Shown here piece after piece: positions 2,488 through 29,742 of a stretch of 64,000 nucleotides of DNA. Every line of letters begins with the position of its first letter. The stretch's first letter is position 1. The DNA lies in contig NZ_CP015193.1 in the NCBI RefSeq assembly GCF_002214605.1, positions 538,978 through 602,977 on the forward strand, written 5' to 3'. Source of the DNA: Thermococcus chitonophagus (GTDB taxonomy: Archaea > Methanobacteriota_B > Thermococci > Thermococcales > Thermococcaceae). Under the pieces are notes generated by a model that saw only the letters and a list, made by a program, of their open reading frames with translations, made no database searches and was not told the origin of the DNA. Made by a program: the position numbers and the translations under genes.

Positions 2488-3246
2488 ATGGATATCCTAA
2501 CAATAATTGTCTTGGTGGTCGCGGTAGTAATTGCAGTGCTACTATCTTCAATGCTAATATCCAGCATGCTTTCAAAGCAGATGAGAGCTATCCAAGCAAT
2601 GATAGCGACCAGTACCCTTGAAACACCAACTAGAGAAGTTACTACTCCAACGAAGTCCATTGGAAGCAAAAAGGCTGAGGAAAGCTTTGAAAAAGAAAGA
2701 AAGAAGGTTTTCCAGGGAGGAGTTAATGAGGAAGAGATCCTTAAGAAGTTGAAGCAAGTTATAGACGAGAAAGTGCAAAATGTGCTGAATGAGGCTAAGC
2801 GGAAGAAAGAGAGACTACTAATGTTGCTTGATGTTGCAAGGGGATACGCTCTAGGTTTCATAAGCGAGGACGAATATAATGCATTCCTTATGAAAGTCTT
2901 GGCGGAACTTGATGAGTTCAAAAGACTATGGCTTGCAAGGTTTCCCTCTCAAAGTGATAGGGACAGACTAAACCAGATGATAAGCTACGTTGCTAGAACT
3001 AAACTGCCCATAGAAGTCAGGGAAAAGGGAAAAGAAAGAACAATAACTTTATCTCCCGATGAAGCGCTTATAAGGATAACCTCAAACATCAACAGCGCAC
3101 TTTCAATACTAGATGATCTTATAAAGAAGAGGGGTGAAAATCCTGCCGTAACGCCACTTGAAATCCAACTTAGTCAAGAAGTTGAAAAGTTGAGAAAGAA
3201 AGTGGAGCAACTTGAGGCGAGGCTTCAAGAACTAGAGGCCCTCTAA
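2488..3246 (+). CDS. Membrane-anchored coiled-coil protein in chemotaxis operon
   Basis: A 252-residue protein I do not recognise as a named family. Residues 2-28 form a single strongly hydrophobic membrane segment with almost no N-terminal tail. The rest is charged and cytoplasmic, with a helical middle and a C-terminal heptad-rich coiled coil (QEVEKLRKKVEQLEARLQEL). A strong GGGAGGTGA ribosome site precedes the ATG. It is sandwiched between the chemoreceptor (37-base gap) and cheF (13-base gap), so it is likely part of the taxis operon, perhaps as a scaffold near receptor arrays or the archaellum base. That role is inference from position only. Confidence 0.75.
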   Translation: MDILTIIVLVVAVVIAVLLSSMLISSMLSKQMRAIQAMIATSTLETPTREVTTPTKSIGSKKAEESFEKERKKVFQGGVNEEEILKKLKQVIDEKVQNVLNEAKRKKERLLMLLDVARGYALGFISEDEYNAFLMKVLAELDEFKRLWLARFPSQSDRDRLNQMISYVARTKLPIEVREKGKERTITLSPDEALIRITSNINSALSILDDLIKKRGENPAVTPLEIQLSQEVEKLRKKVEQLEARLQELEAL

Positions 3247-3259
3247 TGGGGGCACAAAT

Positions 3260-4285
3260 ATGGCGATAGCTGAAACTAGAGTTAAAGTGGCTATTCAGTC
3301 CTCTTGGAAAAGCCTGAGGGGGGTTAGTTGGAGAGATGCCATAGCCCAGTTAGACTCGGATAGGCTTATAATAAAATATCTAAAAATGGGCGAGGTAGTT
3401 GGCGAGGACAGTTTTCCATTTTCGGCGTTGAGTGATATTAATGTTAGGATACCTGATGAAGTTAAGCTAAATCCTGAGAAAGAACACTTTGGAATGAAAT
3501 TCTATATCCCCACGAGAGGAGAACTCCTTCTTATTCTAACGATAGAGGAAAATCTCCTCATATATGACGAAAAGAAGTTTTTGGAGTTCATACACAAGAT
3601 ATTTGAAACGCTAATCAATGGAAAGCCTGCAATGATACAGCTCGCGAGGATAGTTGGTGGAGCAATAAATATGGAGTCTAAGTGGCAGAAAGGATGGCTT
3701 AGGGTAGTTAAGGTAAAATCAGCCAGGACACAAAAGACTGAAAGGAGTGTCGTTGTTATTACTGAGGAAAAGAAGCCAGTTTCAATATTCTCGGATATTG
3801 AGGATATAGAAATTGAGGAAGTCGATATGGATGGCAAGAAAGTTAGAGCGTGGAAGATAAGACACTATCACATTAACCAGAGTGTTACATCTTATCTCTA
3901 TATCCCCGAAAGACAAACTCAATTGTTCGTGCTTAGATACCTTCTAAAATACAACCCTGGGTTAATGGAGTTTATAATGAAGATAGCGGATGACTTTCCA
4001 ACGCTGAAAGCAGAGTTTCAGGAGTTCATGGAGAGAGAATTAAAGGAACTTGAGGCTTTAGATGAAATGGAAAAGCAGATATTGGTGGCCCTTTACTCTG
4101 GAATAGATCCTTTAGAGTTGCACCAATTCTTGGGCGTTAGTGAGAAGGAAATTGAGGAAATATATGATAGAATGATTGACAAGGGGCTTTTGAAGATTGT
4201 TATGATCCGAAAAGTTGTTGATTTAACAAACGAGGGAAGAAGGCTAGTAAACAAACTACTCAAGTACGGACTTGTTTCAATGTAA
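3260..4285 (+). CDS. cheF: Taxis protein CheF (DUF439 family)
   Basis: A 341-residue archaeal-only protein of the DUF439/CheF family. CheF links phosphorylated CheY and the Che machinery to the archaellum motor; in Halobacterium its loss abolishes tactic switching. The N-terminal two thirds are a beta-rich CheF core (residues 1-250, containing VSWRDAIAQLDSDRLIIKYL). The last 80 residues (EMEKQILVALYSGIDPLELHQFLGVSEKEIEEIYDRMIDKGLL) look like a winged-helix module. The gene ends the chemotaxis transcript and overlaps the 3' end of the opposing DUF257 gene by 26 bases. Family assignment is by sequence pattern; the function is carried over from haloarchaea. Confidence 0.85.
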   Translation: MAIAETRVKVAIQSSWKSLRGVSWRDAIAQLDSDRLIIKYLKMGEVVGEDSFPFSALSDINVRIPDEVKLNPEKEHFGMKFYIPTRGELLLILTIEENLLIYDEKKFLEFIHKIFETLINGKPAMIQLARIVGGAINMESKWQKGWLRVVKVKSARTQKTERSVVVITEEKKPVSIFSDIEDIEIEEVDMDGKKVRAWKIRHYHINQSVTSYLYIPERQTQLFVLRYLLKYNPGLMEFIMKIADDFPTLKAEFQEFMERELKELEALDEMEKQILVALYSGIDPLELHQFLGVSEKEIEEIYDRMIDKGLLKIVMIRKVVDLTNEGRRLVNKLLKYGLVSM

Positions 4286-4964
4286 ATAGCAGACTCATGA
4301 TAGTTGGAGTTGTTATCTCTATTGTTCTTTTTATAATCCCAACTATTGGCATTTTTTCAACTCTGAATACTCCCGCCCCTTCTCTAGGCTCAGCTTTAAC
4401 TACTGTAGTCGCTATTCTCTCAAGCTCTGGTAGGGGATCTAGTGGGAGCTTTTTTGTGACACTGGTGTCAATTACATAGATTGTTATGATCTTCTTATGC
4501 CCTAATAGTTTTTGTGTTTCAATTATTATCTGATAGAATTCGCTAAATCTTGAGAGCAAGGCCATTAGTCTTTCACACCCTAGGACTAGAACAATAACAC
4601 TCTCCTTCTTGTCCTTTAAGTACTCTTCAAGAACGTCTCTGTATCTCTTTACATAGAGTAGATGCTCTCCGGCAACGCTAATTCTTTTTATGACCTTTCC
4701 AACATTAATTGTACCTCCAACCTTTATTACGGGAGTTTCTTGGAATATGTCTTGGAAGCCAAGTATCTTGAGGTGCTCTGAGAATACATGCAGTGTGTCG
4801 AGCATGTCAACTATAACGAGTTCTCTGCCCCTGAGCTCTGAATATTTCTCTAATAGGACTGCAAAGAATTCTGGGCCATAAGAACTTGATTCAGCTTTCA
4901 TTAGTACTAGTTCCCCTGGGTTAAGAGTGTCAAGTAAGTTAAAAAGTTCATTCATGGACTCCAT
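4260..4964 (-). CDS. DUF257 family protein (degenerate RecA/KaiC-like)
   Basis: A 234-residue cytosolic protein of the Thermococcales-restricted DUF257 family. It shares the block DxLDTL ... LG ... PVIKVGGxIxVGxV with the protein at 26777-27439, so the two are clear paralogues. The start of the fold, LNPGELVLMKAESSSYGPEFF, resembles the beginning of a KaiC/RecA domain whose Walker A lysine has been lost, so nucleotide hydrolysis is unlikely. I chose the ATG at 4964 because GGTGTGGGG sits just upstream and a TATA element lies at about 5002-5010; an in-frame TTG at 4982 would fall almost at the transcription start. It converges on cheF. The function is unknown. Confidence 0.75.
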   Translation of the reverse strand: MESMNELFNLLDTLNPGELVLMKAESSSYGPEFFAVLLEKYSELRGRELVIVDMLDTLHVFSEHLKILGFQDIFQETPVIKVGGTINVGKVIKRISVAGEHLLYVKRYRDVLEEYLKDKKESVIVLVLGCERLMALLSRFSEFYQIIIETQKLLGHKKIITIYVIDTSVTKKLPLDPLPELERIATTVVKAEPREGAGVFRVEKMPIVGIIKRTIEITTPTIMSLLFTLKQVRT

Positions 4965-22130: not shown

Positions 22131-22892
22131 TCAAATCTTTCGGGCAAATGTTATGTAGCCCGTGTGAGCGAGAATTGTCGTTGTGGGCCGCATGCATTCT
22201 CTCTTTACTTCCTGCTCAAAAATTACCACATCAATAGTCCTTGGCTTCATGAAAACGTCCTTGAACTCCCTTAGTTTTTCTCTAAGCCTTATCACTTGGT
22301 TGGCACAGGGGGTGTAGGCGACGAAAAATCCTCCGGGCTTGAGTGCTTTCATAGCGTGCTCCACGACCTTTTCGGGTTGGGGGAGATCTAGGATCACATG
22401 ATCCACGTTTTCCTCATCTATACCCTCATATATGTCTTTCAGCTTTATTGTTACTCGATCATCAAAGCCCGCCCACTTTATGTTCTCCCAGGCGAGCTTT
22501 GCGAAGTCTTCCCTAATCTCATAGCTGACTATCTTTCCCTGGGGGCCGACTATATTAGCTAGGAAGAGGGTTAAGGCCCCACTCCCTACTCCTGCCTCCA
22601 CTATGAAATCCCCTGGGGAAATTCCTGCGTATGCAACTATAAGTGCTGCATCCTTAGGATGGACTATCTGAGGGCCTCTTTTCATTTTGTCTAGATAATC
22701 AACTATCCTGGGCTTTAGAATTTTGAATTCATGACCTTTGTGGCTCTTTAGAGAGTCGCCGAACTCTTTTCCCACTATCTCTCCAAGCTTTAGTATCCCT
22801 AAGTCGGTGTGGAAATCCCTCTCTTGAACTGTAACGAGGTACCTCTTTCCCCTTGGGTCAACGAGAACTACCTTCTCGCCCTCTCTAATCAT
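22131..22892 (-). CDS. trmI: tRNA (adenine-57/58-N1)-methyltransferase TrmI
   Basis: A 253-residue enzyme that makes m1A at position 58, and in Pyrococcus also at 57, of the T loop of tRNA, stabilising it at high temperature. The N-terminal small beta domain (REGEKVVLVDPRGKRYLV) is followed by the SAM-binding core with DFIVEAGVGSGALTLFLA near residue 95 and VDHVILDLPQPEKVVEHA near residue 165. Length and motifs match the tetrameric P. abyssi enzyme. Its start overlaps the preceding DUF257-like gene by 4 bases, so they are co-transcribed. Confidence 0.95.
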   Translation of the reverse strand: MIREGEKVVLVDPRGKRYLVTVQERDFHTDLGILKLGEIVGKEFGDSLKSHKGHEFKILKPRIVDYLDKMKRGPQIVHPKDAALIVAYAGISPGDFIVEAGVGSGALTLFLANIVGPQGKIVSYEIREDFAKLAWENIKWAGFDDRVTIKLKDIYEGIDEENVDHVILDLPQPEKVVEHAMKALKPGGFFVAYTPCANQVIRLREKLREFKDVFMKPRTIDVVIFEQEVKRECMRPTTTILAHTGYITFARKI

Positions 22893-23503
22893 CCTTTCTT
22901 CACCAGAACTCCCTTGTTTGATGTGTAAATGACTAGCGGACTTATTTCCTCCAAAGCAGCAACGCTCTTTTCTGGAGCTAAGTCTAGGTTTATGAGGTAA
23001 ATCGACGTCCAGTCCTCTATAGGCAGAACGCTCCTGCTTAAGAGAATAGTCTCTAATGCTTTCTCTCCTCCAAAGTGCAGGTACTCTGCAAGTCCAACAG
23101 TTATAAAGATGACTCTCTTTGATGATTTTGCAAGTATTTCCCTTATCCCAGGATAATATAGCTTTATGAACTCGGATAAGTCGTATGTTAGGGGGATCTC
23201 CTCAACTATCTCGCTATAGCTTATCTTCCCGGGCCCTATTTTAACGGCCTTTACTTTTCCCACAACTTTTTCCATGACTTCTCTGTACCTATCGTGAGAT
23301 ATCCTCCTGATATATGTTCTGAAAAGCACATCGCCTATCCCAAAGAAATCGTCAATTACAACTTCGAACTCTCTAATAAAGTTCATGACCAAGCTGTCCC
23401 AGAGAAGATCGTGAACTGGAAATGTGCTAGGGTACTCTATTATCGCAACGTCGCCGTTCTTAATTTCATCCATGATCATTTTAGCTATGATATTGCGTTC
23501 CAT
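22889..23503 (-). CDS. DUF257-like protein upstream of trmI
   Basis: A 204-residue cytosolic protein resembling the other DUF257 members of the window. It has an early strand GDVAIIEYPSTFPVHDLLWD in place of a Walker A loop, then DDFFGIGDVLFRTYI and AVKIGPGKISYSEIVEEIPL, which line up with LDTL and PVIKVGGxIxVGxV of the paralogues. The match is weaker than between the 4260 and 26777 proteins. GGGGAGTG selects the ATG at 23503. Being in a tRNA-modification transcript argues against a purely chemotactic role for the whole family. Confidence 0.65.
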   Translation of the reverse strand: MERNIIAKMIMDEIKNGDVAIIEYPSTFPVHDLLWDSLVMNFIREFEVVIDDFFGIGDVLFRTYIRRISHDRYREVMEKVVGKVKAVKIGPGKISYSEIVEEIPLTYDLSEFIKLYYPGIREILAKSSKRVIFITVGLAEYLHFGGEKALETILLSRSVLPIEDWTSIYLINLDLAPEKSVAALEEISPLVIYTSNKGVLVKKG

Positions 23504-23559
23504 AATCACTCCCCAAAGATTTTAAACCCAGGAAATTTTTAAATTTTGGGGGATTTTGA

Positions 23560-24217: not shown

Positions 24218-25459
24218 ATGATAAAGGTCAACTCTCAAATCTGCGCTATATGTAAAGGCAGAAAGTTGCTGTGTGGTAGGCCAGTTTGTCCGATACTTGA
24301 GAGATTTAGAGCAGTTCGGGAGGTTACACCACTAATAAATAGGGAAGACATCTTTGGATCTTCTCCACCGAGCATTTTCGTTGGTGAATATGGCTATCCG
24401 AAGGTTAGACTTGGCCCTCTAGTTCCTCCAATTGAGGGGGAAACTTCTTACTTAGACAATCCGTCATCTTGGGAAAACGTGACAATAAGGGATGTGCTGA
24501 GGTACAGATCGCTTCTCGTGATGGGCCAGGTGAGAGTTGACGTTGATGTGAGGAAATCTGGAAGGATGATAGAGAGCATTCAAGAGCTTGCACTCTCTTC
24601 TAGGCCCGTTGATAGTGAAATTCTGTTAAAGGGAAAACCAATTGTTAAAGTCCTGCCAAGCGAATTTGCTCCTCCTATAGGACCCAGAGGATTGTTAAAG
24701 AAGTTTGAGGTAGTCGAAAATCCAAAAGTTCCCAGGAAGGTTGATTCAGTTGTTAGTGATGAACTGAAGGCAAGAGATGCGGTGGTAACTCTATATGAGG
24801 CTGGATTTGATGAGTACTACATCATAAGATTACTCTCTGCAGGTCTCCTTGGTATAAAGAAGAAGATCGTTCCGACGAGGTGGAGCATCACAGCCGTCCA
24901 GGACACAATAGGGAACTACTTAAGAAAGATCATCCTGAACTATGGCACTGTAGATAAGTACGAGCTGTATCTCCATGAATTCCTGGGGAACAGGTATGTA
25001 GTGTTGTTGCTTCCCAGAAGATACTCTTTTGAGCTCCTAGAAGTTTGGCTCAAGGGTTCCCTCTTCGGTAGTGATGAGCCTACGGTAATTCACGACTACG
25101 AGGACTTTAGGGGTATAAAGGGGTATGCAGAAGAGACAAGTGGGGCTTACTATGCGGCTAGACTAAGCGTTCTAGAGCACTTGAGAAAGAGACGGAGGCA
25201 GGCAAGTGCCATTGTGTTTAGGGAAGTCACTCCTGCGTATTATGCTCCGGTTGGCGTGTGGCAAATTAGGATTGGGGTTAAAAAGGCTTTGGAAAATGAG
25301 CCGAGAATTTTTGAAACTCTTACGGAAGCTTTAAATGAAGTTGGGAAAATATTGCAACATCCCCTTGATAAGTATCTGGAGAAGAGCTGGCTACTTAAGC
25401 AGCTGAGGCAGAGGAGTATTGAGGCCTTCCTGGGGGTTTCGGGATGGAAAGGAAAATAG
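24218..25459 (+). CDS. nreA: DNA repair protein NreA with PCNA-interacting tail
   Basis: A 413-residue archaeal Nre protein. A zinc finger, CAICKGRKLLCGRPVCP, opens the protein, followed by the DUF650 core (SPPSIFVGEYGYPKVRLGPLVPP) and the DUF651 region. The last residues, QRSIEAFLG, form a PIP box that docks on PCNA. Nre proteins act in repair of DNA damage such as that from mitomycin in haloarchaea; the reaction is unknown. The ATG at 24218 is the first start just before the finger; the ribosome site is weak. The end overlaps the CBS gene by 16 bases. Confidence 0.9.
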   Translation: MIKVNSQICAICKGRKLLCGRPVCPILERFRAVREVTPLINREDIFGSSPPSIFVGEYGYPKVRLGPLVPPIEGETSYLDNPSSWENVTIRDVLRYRSLLVMGQVRVDVDVRKSGRMIESIQELALSSRPVDSEILLKGKPIVKVLPSEFAPPIGPRGLLKKFEVVENPKVPRKVDSVVSDELKARDAVVTLYEAGFDEYYIIRLLSAGLLGIKKKIVPTRWSITAVQDTIGNYLRKIILNYGTVDKYELYLHEFLGNRYVVLLLPRRYSFELLEVWLKGSLFGSDEPTVIHDYEDFRGIKGYAEETSGAYYAARLSVLEHLRKRRRQASAIVFREVTPAYYAPVGVWQIRIGVKKALENEPRIFETLTEALNEVGKILQHPLDKYLEKSWLLKQLRQRSIEAFLGVSGWKGK

Positions 25460-25962
25460 CTAGGATAATGGGGAAGAGGAAATTGGTTCTCCTTGCTCGA
25501 AAAGAAGAGCTCAGCCATAATATAAAGTACATCTCAAAGGTTCCCGTGAGAATAGTTATGGACAAGGAGTTCCTGAAAGTGCATCCTGAGACCCCCATCT
25601 TCGAGCTTATAAACATGTTTACGAGTGAAGAAACTTCGGCTGTTGTTGTTGATGAAAACGATCGGCTTATAGGATTTATAACGATGAAGGATATCCTTAG
25701 CTATTTTATTCCTCCCAGGAAGTATTCAGTTGTCGGCTTTGGAATGCTGAAAAGGTATTCCTTAACTAGAGCTTCACGAGTTGCCGATGTGATGGTCAAA
25801 AGACCTATAACGATAAGCGTCAATGATGATCTTGGACATGCAATAAAGCTCATGATTGAGACTGGGAAGCATCACCTTCCAGTCATCGATGAGAACAGGA
25901 GGGTGCACGGTATACTTGAAGTTAAGGATATAATAAGACTGATCAGGATCGTCTCAACATAG
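25444..25962 (+). CDS. Tandem CBS-domain protein
   Basis: A 172-residue protein of two CBS motifs: one at residues about 35-95 (VHPETPIFELINMFTSEETSAVVVDENDRLIGFITMKDIL) and one at about 112-170 (ITISVNDDLGHAIKLMIETGKHHLPVIDENRRVHGILEVKDI). CBS pairs bind adenosine nucleotides or SAM and act as energy sensors. The N-terminal 30 residues are basic. The gene starts inside the 3' end of nreA, so the pair is translationally coupled, hinting at a nucleotide-sensing partner for the repair protein, though no data in the sequence prove it. Confidence 0.9.
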   Translation: MERKIARIMGKRKLVLLARKEELSHNIKYISKVPVRIVMDKEFLKVHPETPIFELINMFTSEETSAVVVDENDRLIGFITMKDILSYFIPPRKYSVVGFGMLKRYSLTRASRVADVMVKRPITISVNDDLGHAIKLMIETGKHHLPVIDENRRVHGILEVKDIIRLIRIVST

Positions 25963-26085: not shown

Positions 26086-26499
26086 ATGAGAGAGGAAGTA
26101 ATCCTAGACATCCAAAAGCTCCTTTCCCTAAGTGATGAGGAAGTGTTGAATGCAGTGCGAAAATTAAGAGGTGAGGTTATCTGTCCCTATTGTGGATCTC
26201 GTGAAATCGTTAAGATTGGTTTCATAAATAGGAAAAGCGGTTTTGAGGTTCAGCGATTTAAGTGCAAGAATTGTGGCAAGACATTCAATGAGCTTGATGG
26301 GACACCTCTGAGCGGTGTTCATTCATTGAGGAGGATAGTACTTATAGCATACTTTGCACTGTACTTGAAGTTCACACCATCAACTATTATGGCTATAGTT
26401 GACTTAAAGTATCCAACCGTTGTTAGATTATACAAAAGAGTCATTGAGAATAAGGAATTTTTCAATGAACTGTTGGAATTGTTACTAAATGAACAGTAA
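26086..26499 (+). CDS. Orphan zinc-ribbon/HTH protein of transposase (InsA) type
   Basis: A 137-residue protein with a four-cysteine zinc ribbon (CPYCGSREIVKIGF ... FKCKNCGKTF, residues about 32-66) followed by a helical, helix-turn-helix-like segment (PSTIMAIVDLKYPTVVRLYKRVI). This is the layout of the DNA-binding half of IS1/IS1595-type transposases. No DDE catalytic domain follows: the next 277 bases carry no gene. It may be a domesticated transcription factor or the remnant of an insertion sequence. The complete frame and GGAG site near 26077 favour a working gene. Confidence 0.7.
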   Translation: MREEVILDIQKLLSLSDEEVLNAVRKLRGEVICPYCGSREIVKIGFINRKSGFEVQRFKCKNCGKTFNELDGTPLSGVHSLRRIVLIAYFALYLKFTPSTIMAIVDLKYPTVVRLYKRVIENKEFFNELLELLLNEQ

Positions 26500-26776
26500 A
26501 TTTATTCAGTATTATAAATTTGTTTATTCTAAAGATATGTTCGGAAATCGAACTTGTTAATTTGTTTATACAAAATAATCCTGATTACTTTTCTGGTATA
26601 GAGTATTAAATATTTGGACCCTTTTCTATTCTCAACAATTTTTGTTAATTTTGGACATTTGTTATAAAAATATATCTATCTGTAACATCATGTAATAAAA
26701 ATTTTGAACAAAAGTGCACACAAAACTTAAAATTCTCAAATAATTGTTATATTATGTGACAGGTGGTGGGGTAGCT
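26500..26776. other. AT-rich intergenic region ahead of the second chemoreceptor operon
   Basis: A 277-base stretch without a gene, visibly richer in A and T than its surroundings, with several TTATA/AATATTT words (for example near 26606 and 26660) and AACAATTTTTGTTAATTTTGG. No coding pattern, inverted terminal repeat or structured RNA is evident. It must contain the promoter of the DUF257-chemoreceptor operon, whose exact TATA I cannot fix among the many AT words. Confidence 0.6.
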
Positions 26777-27439
26777 ATGGAGATCTCGGATGTCCTCGAG
26801 AAAGAAAAGATAAGCGTCCTTGTTGAATACACGTCCGAAGATGTGCTAGGCCCTACAGTATTTACAATACTACAAAGGATCATAGACAAATATGGGGACA
26901 GAGCCCTGATAATAATTACGGACTTCCTCGATACCCTACCAATATACAAGTATCAGGCAGAATTGCTCGGCATGAAAACTGACCTTATAGAGAATGTGCC
27001 GGTAATAAAGGTAGGAGGGAAGATTAGCGTCGGGAACGTTCTTCACAAAATTCCAATTTCAGCGTATCCAGTGTACAAGACCTTATACGAAGAGGCTCTA
27101 GGAAAGCTACTAGACAACGTTAGACATCATAATGGATTCTTCATTAACATGCAGCTCGGCATAGAAAACATAATGAACATCTTTGACAAGAAAGAGTTAA
27201 TCGAGCAGGTTCATGACATAGGGGAATACGTTGTCACGAAAAACAAGGACGTCAGAGACATAGTCTTCTTGAATACTGATTCTATGAGGAATGTTTCTCT
27301 ACAAGTCGTTTCAATGCTGAAAATGATATTTCCAATAGTTCTGAAGCTCACAAACGATGGTAAATCCTTCGTTGTTAGCAAAAGCGTTTTTCCTAACCTA
27401 AAGGGAAGCAGCGGGACAATATGGGAGGTGATGGAGTAA
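26777..27439 (+). CDS. DUF257 protein, first gene of chemoreceptor operon
   Basis: A 220-residue paralogue of the DUF257 protein at 4260-4964. It shares DFLDTLPIYKYQAELLGMKTDLIENVPVIKVGGKISVGNVLHKI with conserved spacing (long block at residues about 48-95). No Walker A or B motif is present although the strand order suggests a RecA/KaiC-like core. AGGTGGTGGGG precedes the ATG at 26777. The TAA stop is directly followed by the ATG of the chemoreceptor, so the two are made together in fixed ratio, which argues for a physical or signalling partnership. Confidence 0.8.
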   Translation: MEISDVLEKEKISVLVEYTSEDVLGPTVFTILQRIIDKYGDRALIIITDFLDTLPIYKYQAELLGMKTDLIENVPVIKVGGKISVGNVLHKIPISAYPVYKTLYEEALGKLLDNVRHHNGFFINMQLGIENIMNIFDKKELIEQVHDIGEYVVTKNKDVRDIVFLNTDSMRNVSLQVVSMLKMIFPIVLKLTNDGKSFVVSKSVFPNLKGSSGTIWEVME

Positions 27440-28945
27440 ATGAAATTCAAGAAGAAGCTGACCTTATCGATATTCCTTCCTCTCGTCTTGGCTGTTGTAA
27501 CGGCAATAGTGATAGAGAACATGGCAATATCTGACCTCTACGATAACCTTGAAAAGACTATGCAGATAGTCAGATCTGGGGGTTCTGCTGAAGCGATACA
27601 GTCTAGCATGGCCTCCGCCCTCTCTCAGCTCAAGAAAACCCTATGGATCAGCATAGGGGCTATGGCCGCAGTCGCTGTAGGGTCTGGAGTCGTTGCCTAT
27701 GGTCTAATGAAGTCTGCACTTGATCCTGTAAGTAAAATGGCAAGAGTTGCAGAGAACATAGCCCAAGGAAGGTTGAATTATGCTAGGAGAATGATAACGG
27801 AGATACAATACAGGGAAAGGGACGAAATAGGAAAACTTCTGGAGGCCTTTAGGTCAATATCCCAGGATGTTCTCAGAACCCTTGAAGTCATCACCGAGAG
27901 AATGGAGAAAATTGCCGAGGGGGACGTGAGAGACGATATAACCTTACATGCGAAAGGTGATTTCGAAAGTATCCTCAATGCTATGAGAAGAACGGTAACT
28001 CAGCTGAGAACCTTAATGAAAACTGTGAAGGATTTGGCCTTGACCCTAGAGAAGAGGGCTGATGAGCTGACCAGGATAGCTTCAGAAATCACTGAAGCTG
28101 TGAATCAAGTTGCAGAGGCTATCCAGCAGGTAAGTACTGAAGCCCAGAGGCAACAGGAAAACATAAGCATGATAATGGATGGCATGAACATAACTGCAGA
28201 TGTTACCCAGAAGACTGTCGATGCAATGGAAGAGTTCAGTGGGATTGTTAATGAGGTAATATCGATAGCTAGAGAGGGCAAGGAGAAAGGTGAGAAAGCG
28301 ATAACTCAAGTGGGAGACATTCAGGAGGCCATGAAAGTCATTAGGGATGCAGTTCAAGAAGTTGCCGAGATGAGCAAGAACGTTGGCGAGATAATAAACA
28401 CGATAGCAGATATAGCTGAGCAGACTAACCTTCTAGCATTGAATGCAGCAATAGAAGCAGCTAGGGCAGGTGAGCTCGGAAGAGGCTTTGCTGTTGTTGC
28501 CCAGGAAGTTAGGAACTTGGCTGAAGAAAGCAAAGATGCTGCTGATAGGATAAGATCCATCCTTAGGGACATCCAAGAGAAAGTCGAGCGGGCAGTCGAA
28601 GAGACCGAGAGAGGCGTTAAGATAGTAGATAACTCCGTTGATTTCCTGAAGGAGACTGTTGGCTATCTAATGAACATAGGGGAGTTGCTAGATGATGTGG
28701 AGGAGAGGCTCAATGCCGTTAAATCTGAAATCACCAATACCCAGGAGCACGTTGAGAATGCTAAGAGGGCTCTCGAAAATCTGGCGGCGAGTGCAGAAGA
28801 GATGACTGCTAGCGCACAAGAAGTTAGCGCGAGTGCTGAGGAGCAGGCGTCATCTCTAGAAGAGGTTAAGAGGAACATAATAGAGCTCAGGAACATAGTC
28901 AAGGATCTTAGAAAGGCTATTGAGTTCATAAAGGTTGAGGGGTGA
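27440..28945 (+). CDS. mcp: Methyl-accepting chemotaxis protein with minimal extracellular loop
   Basis: A 501-residue chemoreceptor. Membrane segments lie at about residues 7-27 and 67-89, with only about 39 residues between them, too few for a Cache or four-helix sensor. A HAMP region follows ([21 protein letters not shown]), then a second HAMP-like linker and the full signalling hairpin with [19 protein letters not shown] at about 327-345, almost identical to the receptor at 204-2450. With no outside sensor, it probably reads a membrane or cytoplasmic cue or a partner protein. The adjoining DUF257 and KaiC-like products are the obvious candidates. Confidence 0.93.
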
Positions 28946-28953
28946 TTTTCCTT

Positions 28954-29742
28954 ATGGATTCCTCTTTTGAATTCTTTTCTCCCATACCTATTGATATCGA
29001 GGAAATAGACAGGGCAATCGGAGGAGGGTTGATAAGGGGTACGACAATTACAATAATGTACGATGCGTTTTCTCTAGGCTGGGCCCTCGGCTTTGAAATC
29101 TTCAAGAACATGCTCTTTAGGAATTCATTTGGCGTGATCCACAATTACAGCCTCCCTGTAATAAAGCTGATATCTCGGGCTTCCTTTGTGGGATTGAATC
29201 TTCAAAGGTTGGCTCGAGAAGAGAGGAGAGTGAAGATTCTTGATATATTTGGATCAAAGTACGATATTCCTCCTTATGATGATTATGTTATCACAATACC
29301 AAATCCCACGGAGGAAACATTAACTCCAAAAATAGAGAGAGTTTATGAGGAAAGAATTTACCCAATAGCCGGTGAGAAGAGAATAGTCAAGCTAATTTAC
29401 ACCTTGGATGGTGTCGTAACGCTATTCGATGAGAATGTCACTATAAAGTTGCTGAATGCGGAGGTTGCCCATCTCGCAAAGGTGTATAAAAGGAGGGATA
29501 TAATCTCAATATTCCTCCTTAACATGGATGTCGTGTCGAGAAAGTTTGTCGCTTGGGTTTCCGGTTTGAGTGACGTTGTCATAGTATTCAACTCGAGAAT
29601 CGGGGATGGTGAGCTCGTTGAGACCATGAGCATACTCAAGTCTCCTAACCCGGACTTTGAGCCAAGTACGTATGAATTTAAAATTGCAGCTAATGATGGA
29701 GCACACTCCTTATCCTTCAGGAAGTCAGAAAGGAACGCATAA
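28954..29742 (+). CDS. Degenerate KaiC/RecA-like protein in chemoreceptor operon
   Basis: A 262-residue protein whose start, IDRAIGGGLIRGTTITIMYDAFSLGWALGFE, copies the KaiC/RecA entry sequence (xLDxxLGGGxxxG-xxxLI) but lacks the GKT/S of Walker A, so it should not hydrolyse ATP. A later IISIFLLNMDVV resembles a Walker B strand. GAGGGGTGA selects the ATG at 28954; a GTG at 28942 overlaps the receptor stop. It resembles in outline ArlH, the KaiC-like archaellum motor protein, and is distantly like DUF257. A role in receptor or motor signalling is inferred. Confidence 0.7.
   Translation: MDSSFEFFSPIPIDIEEIDRAIGGGLIRGTTITIMYDAFSLGWALGFEIFKNMLFRNSFGVIHNYSLPVIKLISRASFVGLNLQRLAREERRVKILDIFGSKYDIPPYDDYVITIPNPTEETLTPKIERVYEERIYPIAGEKRIVKLIYTLDGVVTLFDENVTIKLLNAEVAHLAKVYKRRDIISIFLLNMDVVSRKFVAWVSGLSDVVIVFNSRIGDGELVETMSILKSPNPDFEPSTYEFKIAANDGAHSLSFRKSERNA

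Follow-up and report, generated by a model that had tools for sequence, protein, structure and literature searches.

A conserved archaeal locus joins a minimal chemoreceptor to two degenerate KaiC-like proteins

We analyzed a 64,000-nucleotide stretch (the window) of the one-contig, 1.96 Mb genome of Thermococcus chitonophagus (NZ_CP015193.1, positions 538,978 to 602,977 of the forward strand), in which a chemoreceptor gene lies within a compact gene cluster. The initial annotation described a three-gene operon encoding a DUF257 protein (gene A), a chemoreceptor (gene B) and a KaiC-like protein without a Walker A motif (gene C). The three genes are present as described, but a fourth, fam6, had been overlooked. 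The features of the locus are the following.

26086-26499, + strand: fam6, an IS1/InsA-type Zn-ribbon protein of 137 amino acids with a helical C-terminal part
26682-26696, strand unassigned: candidate palindromic operator GTAACATCATGTAAT, ~90 bp upstream of A
26723-26734, + strand: probable BRE (B recognition element)/TATA core of the A-B-C operon, AAAACTTAAAAT, located by eye in an upstream alignment
26777-27439, + strand: gene A, a DUF257 protein of 220 amino acids, with a predicted degenerate RecA/KaiC-like fold lacking the P-loop
27440-28945, + strand: gene B, a chemoreceptor of 501 amino acids with two HAMP-type domains and a signalling hairpin of the methyl-accepting chemotaxis protein (MCP) type
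28358-28552, + strand: tip of the B hairpin (residues 307-371), with the canonical CheA/CheW-contacting sequence
28954-29742, + strand: gene C, a degenerate KaiC-like protein of 262 amino acids (alternative GTG start at 28942)
29059-29082, + strand: the YDAFSLGW motif of C (residues 36-43), at the expected Walker A position

The three genes had been described as locked together. Indeed, no base separates the TAA of A from the ATG of B. Starting C at the GTG at 28942 would give a 4-base overlap with the B stop codon, but the orthologues of C begin near the ATG at 28954, which is the more likely start.

Profile homology, AlphaFold2 (AF2) models and Foldseek matches identify A and C as RecA-superfamily proteins without a P-loop, distantly homologous to each other and to KaiC/RecA. 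The early guess that they are dead RecA-like proteins was thus right for both. A is a member of DUF257 (PF03192, 1e-21, 78.2 bits versus a cut-off of 25), whereas C scores 22.8 bits against the KaiC family (PF06745), below the cut-off of 26.6. No Walker A motif (GxxxxGK[ST]) is found in C, and YDAFSLGW stands in its place. In an alignment of C with 24 relatives (25 members), a conserved YDxxSxxW replaces Walker A, with Tyr36, Asp37 and Ser40 invariant and Trp43 nearly so. Nor is an aspartate apparent in this alignment where the Walker B strand should end; Thr150 occupies the position and is followed by the nearly invariant Asp152. When profiles were compared with hhalign, the A and C families aligned over 204 columns with P values of 2.8e-7 to 3.8e-7, and C aligned over its full length with KaiC relatives that retain the P-loop (P 2.6e-7); unrelated families used as controls gave P values of 0.0044-0.9. 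An hmmsearch of the Protein Data Bank (PDB) with the C family profile retrieved 3BS4 at 1e-17, followed by KaiC at 1e-3.

The AF2 models of A (pLDDT 91, pTM 0.89) and C (pLDDT 88, pTM 0.87) both have RecA/KaiC-type folds. Foldseek matched the A model to PH0250 (2EKD, E 1.6e-15), PH0321 (3BS4), FlaH (4YDS, the fourth match), KaiC, Rho and Elp456, with TM-scores of ~0.42-0.62 beyond 2EKD. The C model matched PH0321, SSO2452 and KaiC, the last with TMq values of 0.65-0.74. PH0250 is itself a DUF257 protein and self-interacted in a two-hybrid screen (PMC1414084). The orthologous group of A differs from most DUF257 genes in being tied to a receptor. PH0321, an uncharacterised KaiC-like protein whose PDB title mentions an unknown peptide in the structure, is the top match of C in both sequence and fold; however, it is only ~21% identical to C and has no known receptor link. 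Inactive KaiC domains (iKaiC), such as DUF835 and MEDS, are a known class, and their role as archaeal signalling parts is already an accepted idea (PMC5847659). As a KaiC-like domain without ATPase motifs, C is an iKaiC directly, and A is one by way of C and of its fold. Both proteins share the RecA-type fold with KaiC and the archaeal KaiC-like ATPases. C differs from them in carrying the conserved YDxxSxxW instead of Walker A, and in its genetic context, an operon shared with an MCP gene instead of a fusion to REC or PAS domains. A and C presumably bind no nucleotide.

B has the features of an MCP, namely HAMP-type domains (two matches), an MCP signalling domain (MCPsignal, 1e-42) and a canonical tip. 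It had been noted as a receptor with almost no extracellular sensor, and its topology agrees. The transmembrane segments (limits judged by eye) span residues ~8-27 and ~67-90, and the outside loop between them has ~40 residues, or 28 in the Thermococcus-like genomes. Such a loop is too short for a Cache or PAS sensor, and therefore B has no outside ligand-binding domain. The tip and the methylation-type sites are canonical in every module member, and the hairpin shows no insertions or deletions relative to the Cache receptor of the taxis operon. B is therefore compatible with an ordinary chemoreceptor array, as judged from its sequence. B differs from other MCPs in its minimal outside loop, its constant A and C neighbours and its retention in a genome without detected CheA.

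Whole-genome searches for orthologous A, B and C found the module in 14 genomes of three genera, always in the order fam6-A-B-C: in 9/9 genomes of the window's genus (G000-G008; a contig end cuts C in G008), in four Thermococcus-like genomes (G048, G051, G057 and G069) and in one genome of a third genus (G030). The genes abut or nearly so in all 14, while the flanking contexts vary and G030 has different neighbours. The module is an old block whose genes have stayed together. Among 40 receptors placed in a tree, the B proteins of the module form one clade (UFBoot 95, 96% of bootstrap trees), within which G030 branches deepest. A recent transfer of the module from the window's genus into G030 is therefore unsupported. 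Upstream of the module at several loci (L113-L116 and L071) are genes for a CBS-domain protein and a CPA2-type antiporter; the window retains the CBS gene (25444-25962) and is missing the antiporter gene. In G004 (L071, 7327-8939), an insertion interrupts B at residue ~378 and carries a 432-residue open reading frame, TnpB-like and resembling a transposon protein, while A and C are intact.

The fourth gene, fam6, immediately precedes A wherever the module occurs and is present in two copies in the Thermococcus-like genomes. Its product matches NF050000 (IS1_IS1595_Zn, 4.5e-10, 39.9 bits versus a cut-off of 28), and fam6 is probably a DNA-binding regulator of the module. In G030, it has a frameshift in its N-terminal part, which may be genuine or an artefact of sequencing. 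The BRE/TATA element appears by eye to be kept across the upstream alignment, including G030. Most members of the window's genus carry an operator-type motif, AACWW-N-WWGT, at -88 to -102, which was not found upstream of the Thermococcus-like modules. Taken alone, it has a 22% chance of occurring in a shuffled 220-bp stretch, and its copy in the window is a weak candidate for a fam6 operator.

The module is strongly associated with che genes. It occurs in 13/29 che+ genomes versus 1/44 che- genomes (Fisher p=8e-6, a value that is phylogenetically confounded, as 9 of the 13 belong to one genus). The one che- genome with the module is G030, assembled as one contig and 99% complete. G030 has intact A, B and C, and B is its sole MCP by hidden Markov model (HMM) search. 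Whole-genome HMM searches of G030 detected no CheW domain (CheA/CheW), CheF, CheR, FlaD/E or archaellin, and tblastn over 84% of the genome, with G000 and G021 che proteins as queries, returned B only and no che remnants. The G030 receptor is 61% identical to that of the window overall and 82% identical in the tip, which is intact, and its branch is not long (0.24). Because G030 lacks CheA, array signalling is not the sole role of B, unless che was lost very recently.

Such a loss is assumed by the alternative that survives best, in which B is an ordinary accessory taxis receptor and the module in G030 is a relic left after recent loss of the che and archaellum genes. The co-occurrence with che, the array-compatible receptor and the fam6 frameshift agree with this explanation. 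However, no che or archaellin remnants are seen in the part of G030 that was read, all of A, B and C are intact there, and the conserved dead KaiC-like partners would be left unexplained. We consider it unlikely, though a serious contender. Somewhat less likely still is an explanation in which B signals independently of CheA, reporting through A and C to a non-taxis output, with taxis at most secondary. It would account for the intact A-B-C and sole MCP of a genome without che or archaellum genes by HMM, for the missing che remnants and for the unchanged tip on a branch that is not long. On the other hand, che is present in 13 of the 14 genomes with the module, it is difficult to see why a canonical CheA/CheW tip would be kept without CheA, and the case depends on a single genome whose fam6 is frameshifted.

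The initial annotation suggested that dead RecA-like proteins may act as adaptors between receptors and the motor, or as the true sensors of receptors without an outside domain, and asked whether DUF257 co-occurs with che and arl genes. A link to the archaellum motor is not supported. DUF257 is present in 2-15 copies in each Thermococcaceae genome of the search, with a median of 8 in che+ and 8 in che- genomes (p=0.34), and we rejected the idea that its abundance tracks che. The DUF257 gene at 4260-4964, next to cheF, was also considered as a taxis link and rejected, since this position is absent in 15 other che clusters; although described as a close paralogue of A, it is a DUF257 member only 22% identical to it. 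ArlH-like adaptors coupling the receptor to the archaellum motor are accordingly very improbable. A and C share the fold superfamily of ArlH/FlaH, and A matches 4YDS, but they lack the P-loop, lie outside the arl operon and persist in G030, which has neither FlaD/E nor archaellin; C is also closer to PH0321 and KaiC. The clustering of DUF257 with receptors applies to one orthologous receptor, to which A and C are locked in three genera. Among 20 other MCP loci examined, a C-like neighbour was found at none and DUF257 was nearby at one. At that locus (L134, G031:C1:1411000-1414450), a same-strand DUF257 pair lies 1.2 kb downstream of the gene for a 254-residue MCP-like protein; apart from the module, no other close pairing of a receptor with DUF257 was seen. 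Finally, DUF257 and C-like genes (usually 1-7 per genome) are multicopy and might by chance lie beside unrelated genes, but the tight, identical arrangement of orthologues recurs across three genera, in 14 genomes; the grouping is not chance, and synteny refutes this explanation.

We favor, with a rough probability of 0.5, the reading that the locus is a four-gene signalling module in which the pseudo-ATPase KaiC-like pair A/C provides the input of B or, in G030, takes its output. Neighbouring DUF257 and C-like genes on the same strand without a receptor occur in G016, G020 and G026 and hint at a partnership of A and C. Several points weigh against the reading. Such receptor-free pairs are few, SH-aLRT (the Shimodaira-Hasegawa-like approximate likelihood ratio test) is 0 at the base of the B clade in the receptor tree, and G030 keeps the module without CheA. 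Moreover, DUF257 compared directly with P-loop KaiC gave no hhalign signal (P 0.63), and the link between them therefore rests on C and on structure.

RecA/KaiC superfamily proteins form rings and filaments. A and C may form a cytosolic oligomer, homo- or hetero-oligomeric, that would bind B through its HAMP/signalling region and control its state, serving as a pseudo-ATPase sensor or adaptor. Where che genes are present, the receptor would relay this input to CheA/CheW, and hence to taxis. Without CheA, as in G030, the onward signal would have to come from the A/C pair itself; signalling there may run the other way, from B to A/C, or the module may be no more than a relic. Expression of the A-B-C operon would be controlled by fam6.

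Several further observations concern DUF257 and taxis genes elsewhere. The window contains another divergent DUF257 gene (22889-23509, - strand), missed by the initial annotation, between trmI and a small conserved open reading frame; it occupies the same place across the window's genus. A tandem DUF257 pair (L077, G000:C1:1176191-1177425; L008-L037) is conserved in most Thermococcaceae genomes read. A membrane-anchored coiled-coil protein (2488-3246) lies between the Cache MCP and cheF, a position kept in 12/16 che clusters read, and probably belongs to the Thermococcales taxis operon. Divergent CheW-domain proteins of ~760-790 amino acids occur in five genomes (G025:C1:385615, G036:C1:820860, G046:C1:810154, G047:C1:76846 and G049:C1:1434229), within 10 kb of archaellum genes in G025 and G036, and are possibly an alternative CheA-like system. 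Standard CheA/CheW are absent from G036, G047 and G049.

The combination of an MCP, an iKaiC and DUF257 is a new one of known kinds; no prior description appeared in the literature searched, which did not include the main KaiC-hub study, and priority for DUF257 as an iKaiC is uncertain. The G030 module raises the question of what role a chemoreceptor with an intact CheA-binding tip plays in a cell without CheA. A bolder and rather doubtful possibility is that a chemoreceptor-type protein signals without CheA through a dead KaiC-like pair of the DUF257 and YDxxSxxW families, as an independent archaeal system able to work with a Che array but not dependent on it. DUF257, a large unexplained family, gains a fold and, as a lineage of dead KaiC-like proteins, a kinship with the YDxxSxxW group; for one of its members, a chemoreceptor now stands as a specific candidate partner. 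It thereby becomes possible to test, in a genetically tractable group, the proposal that KaiC-like proteins, including dead ones, serve as archaeal signalling hubs.
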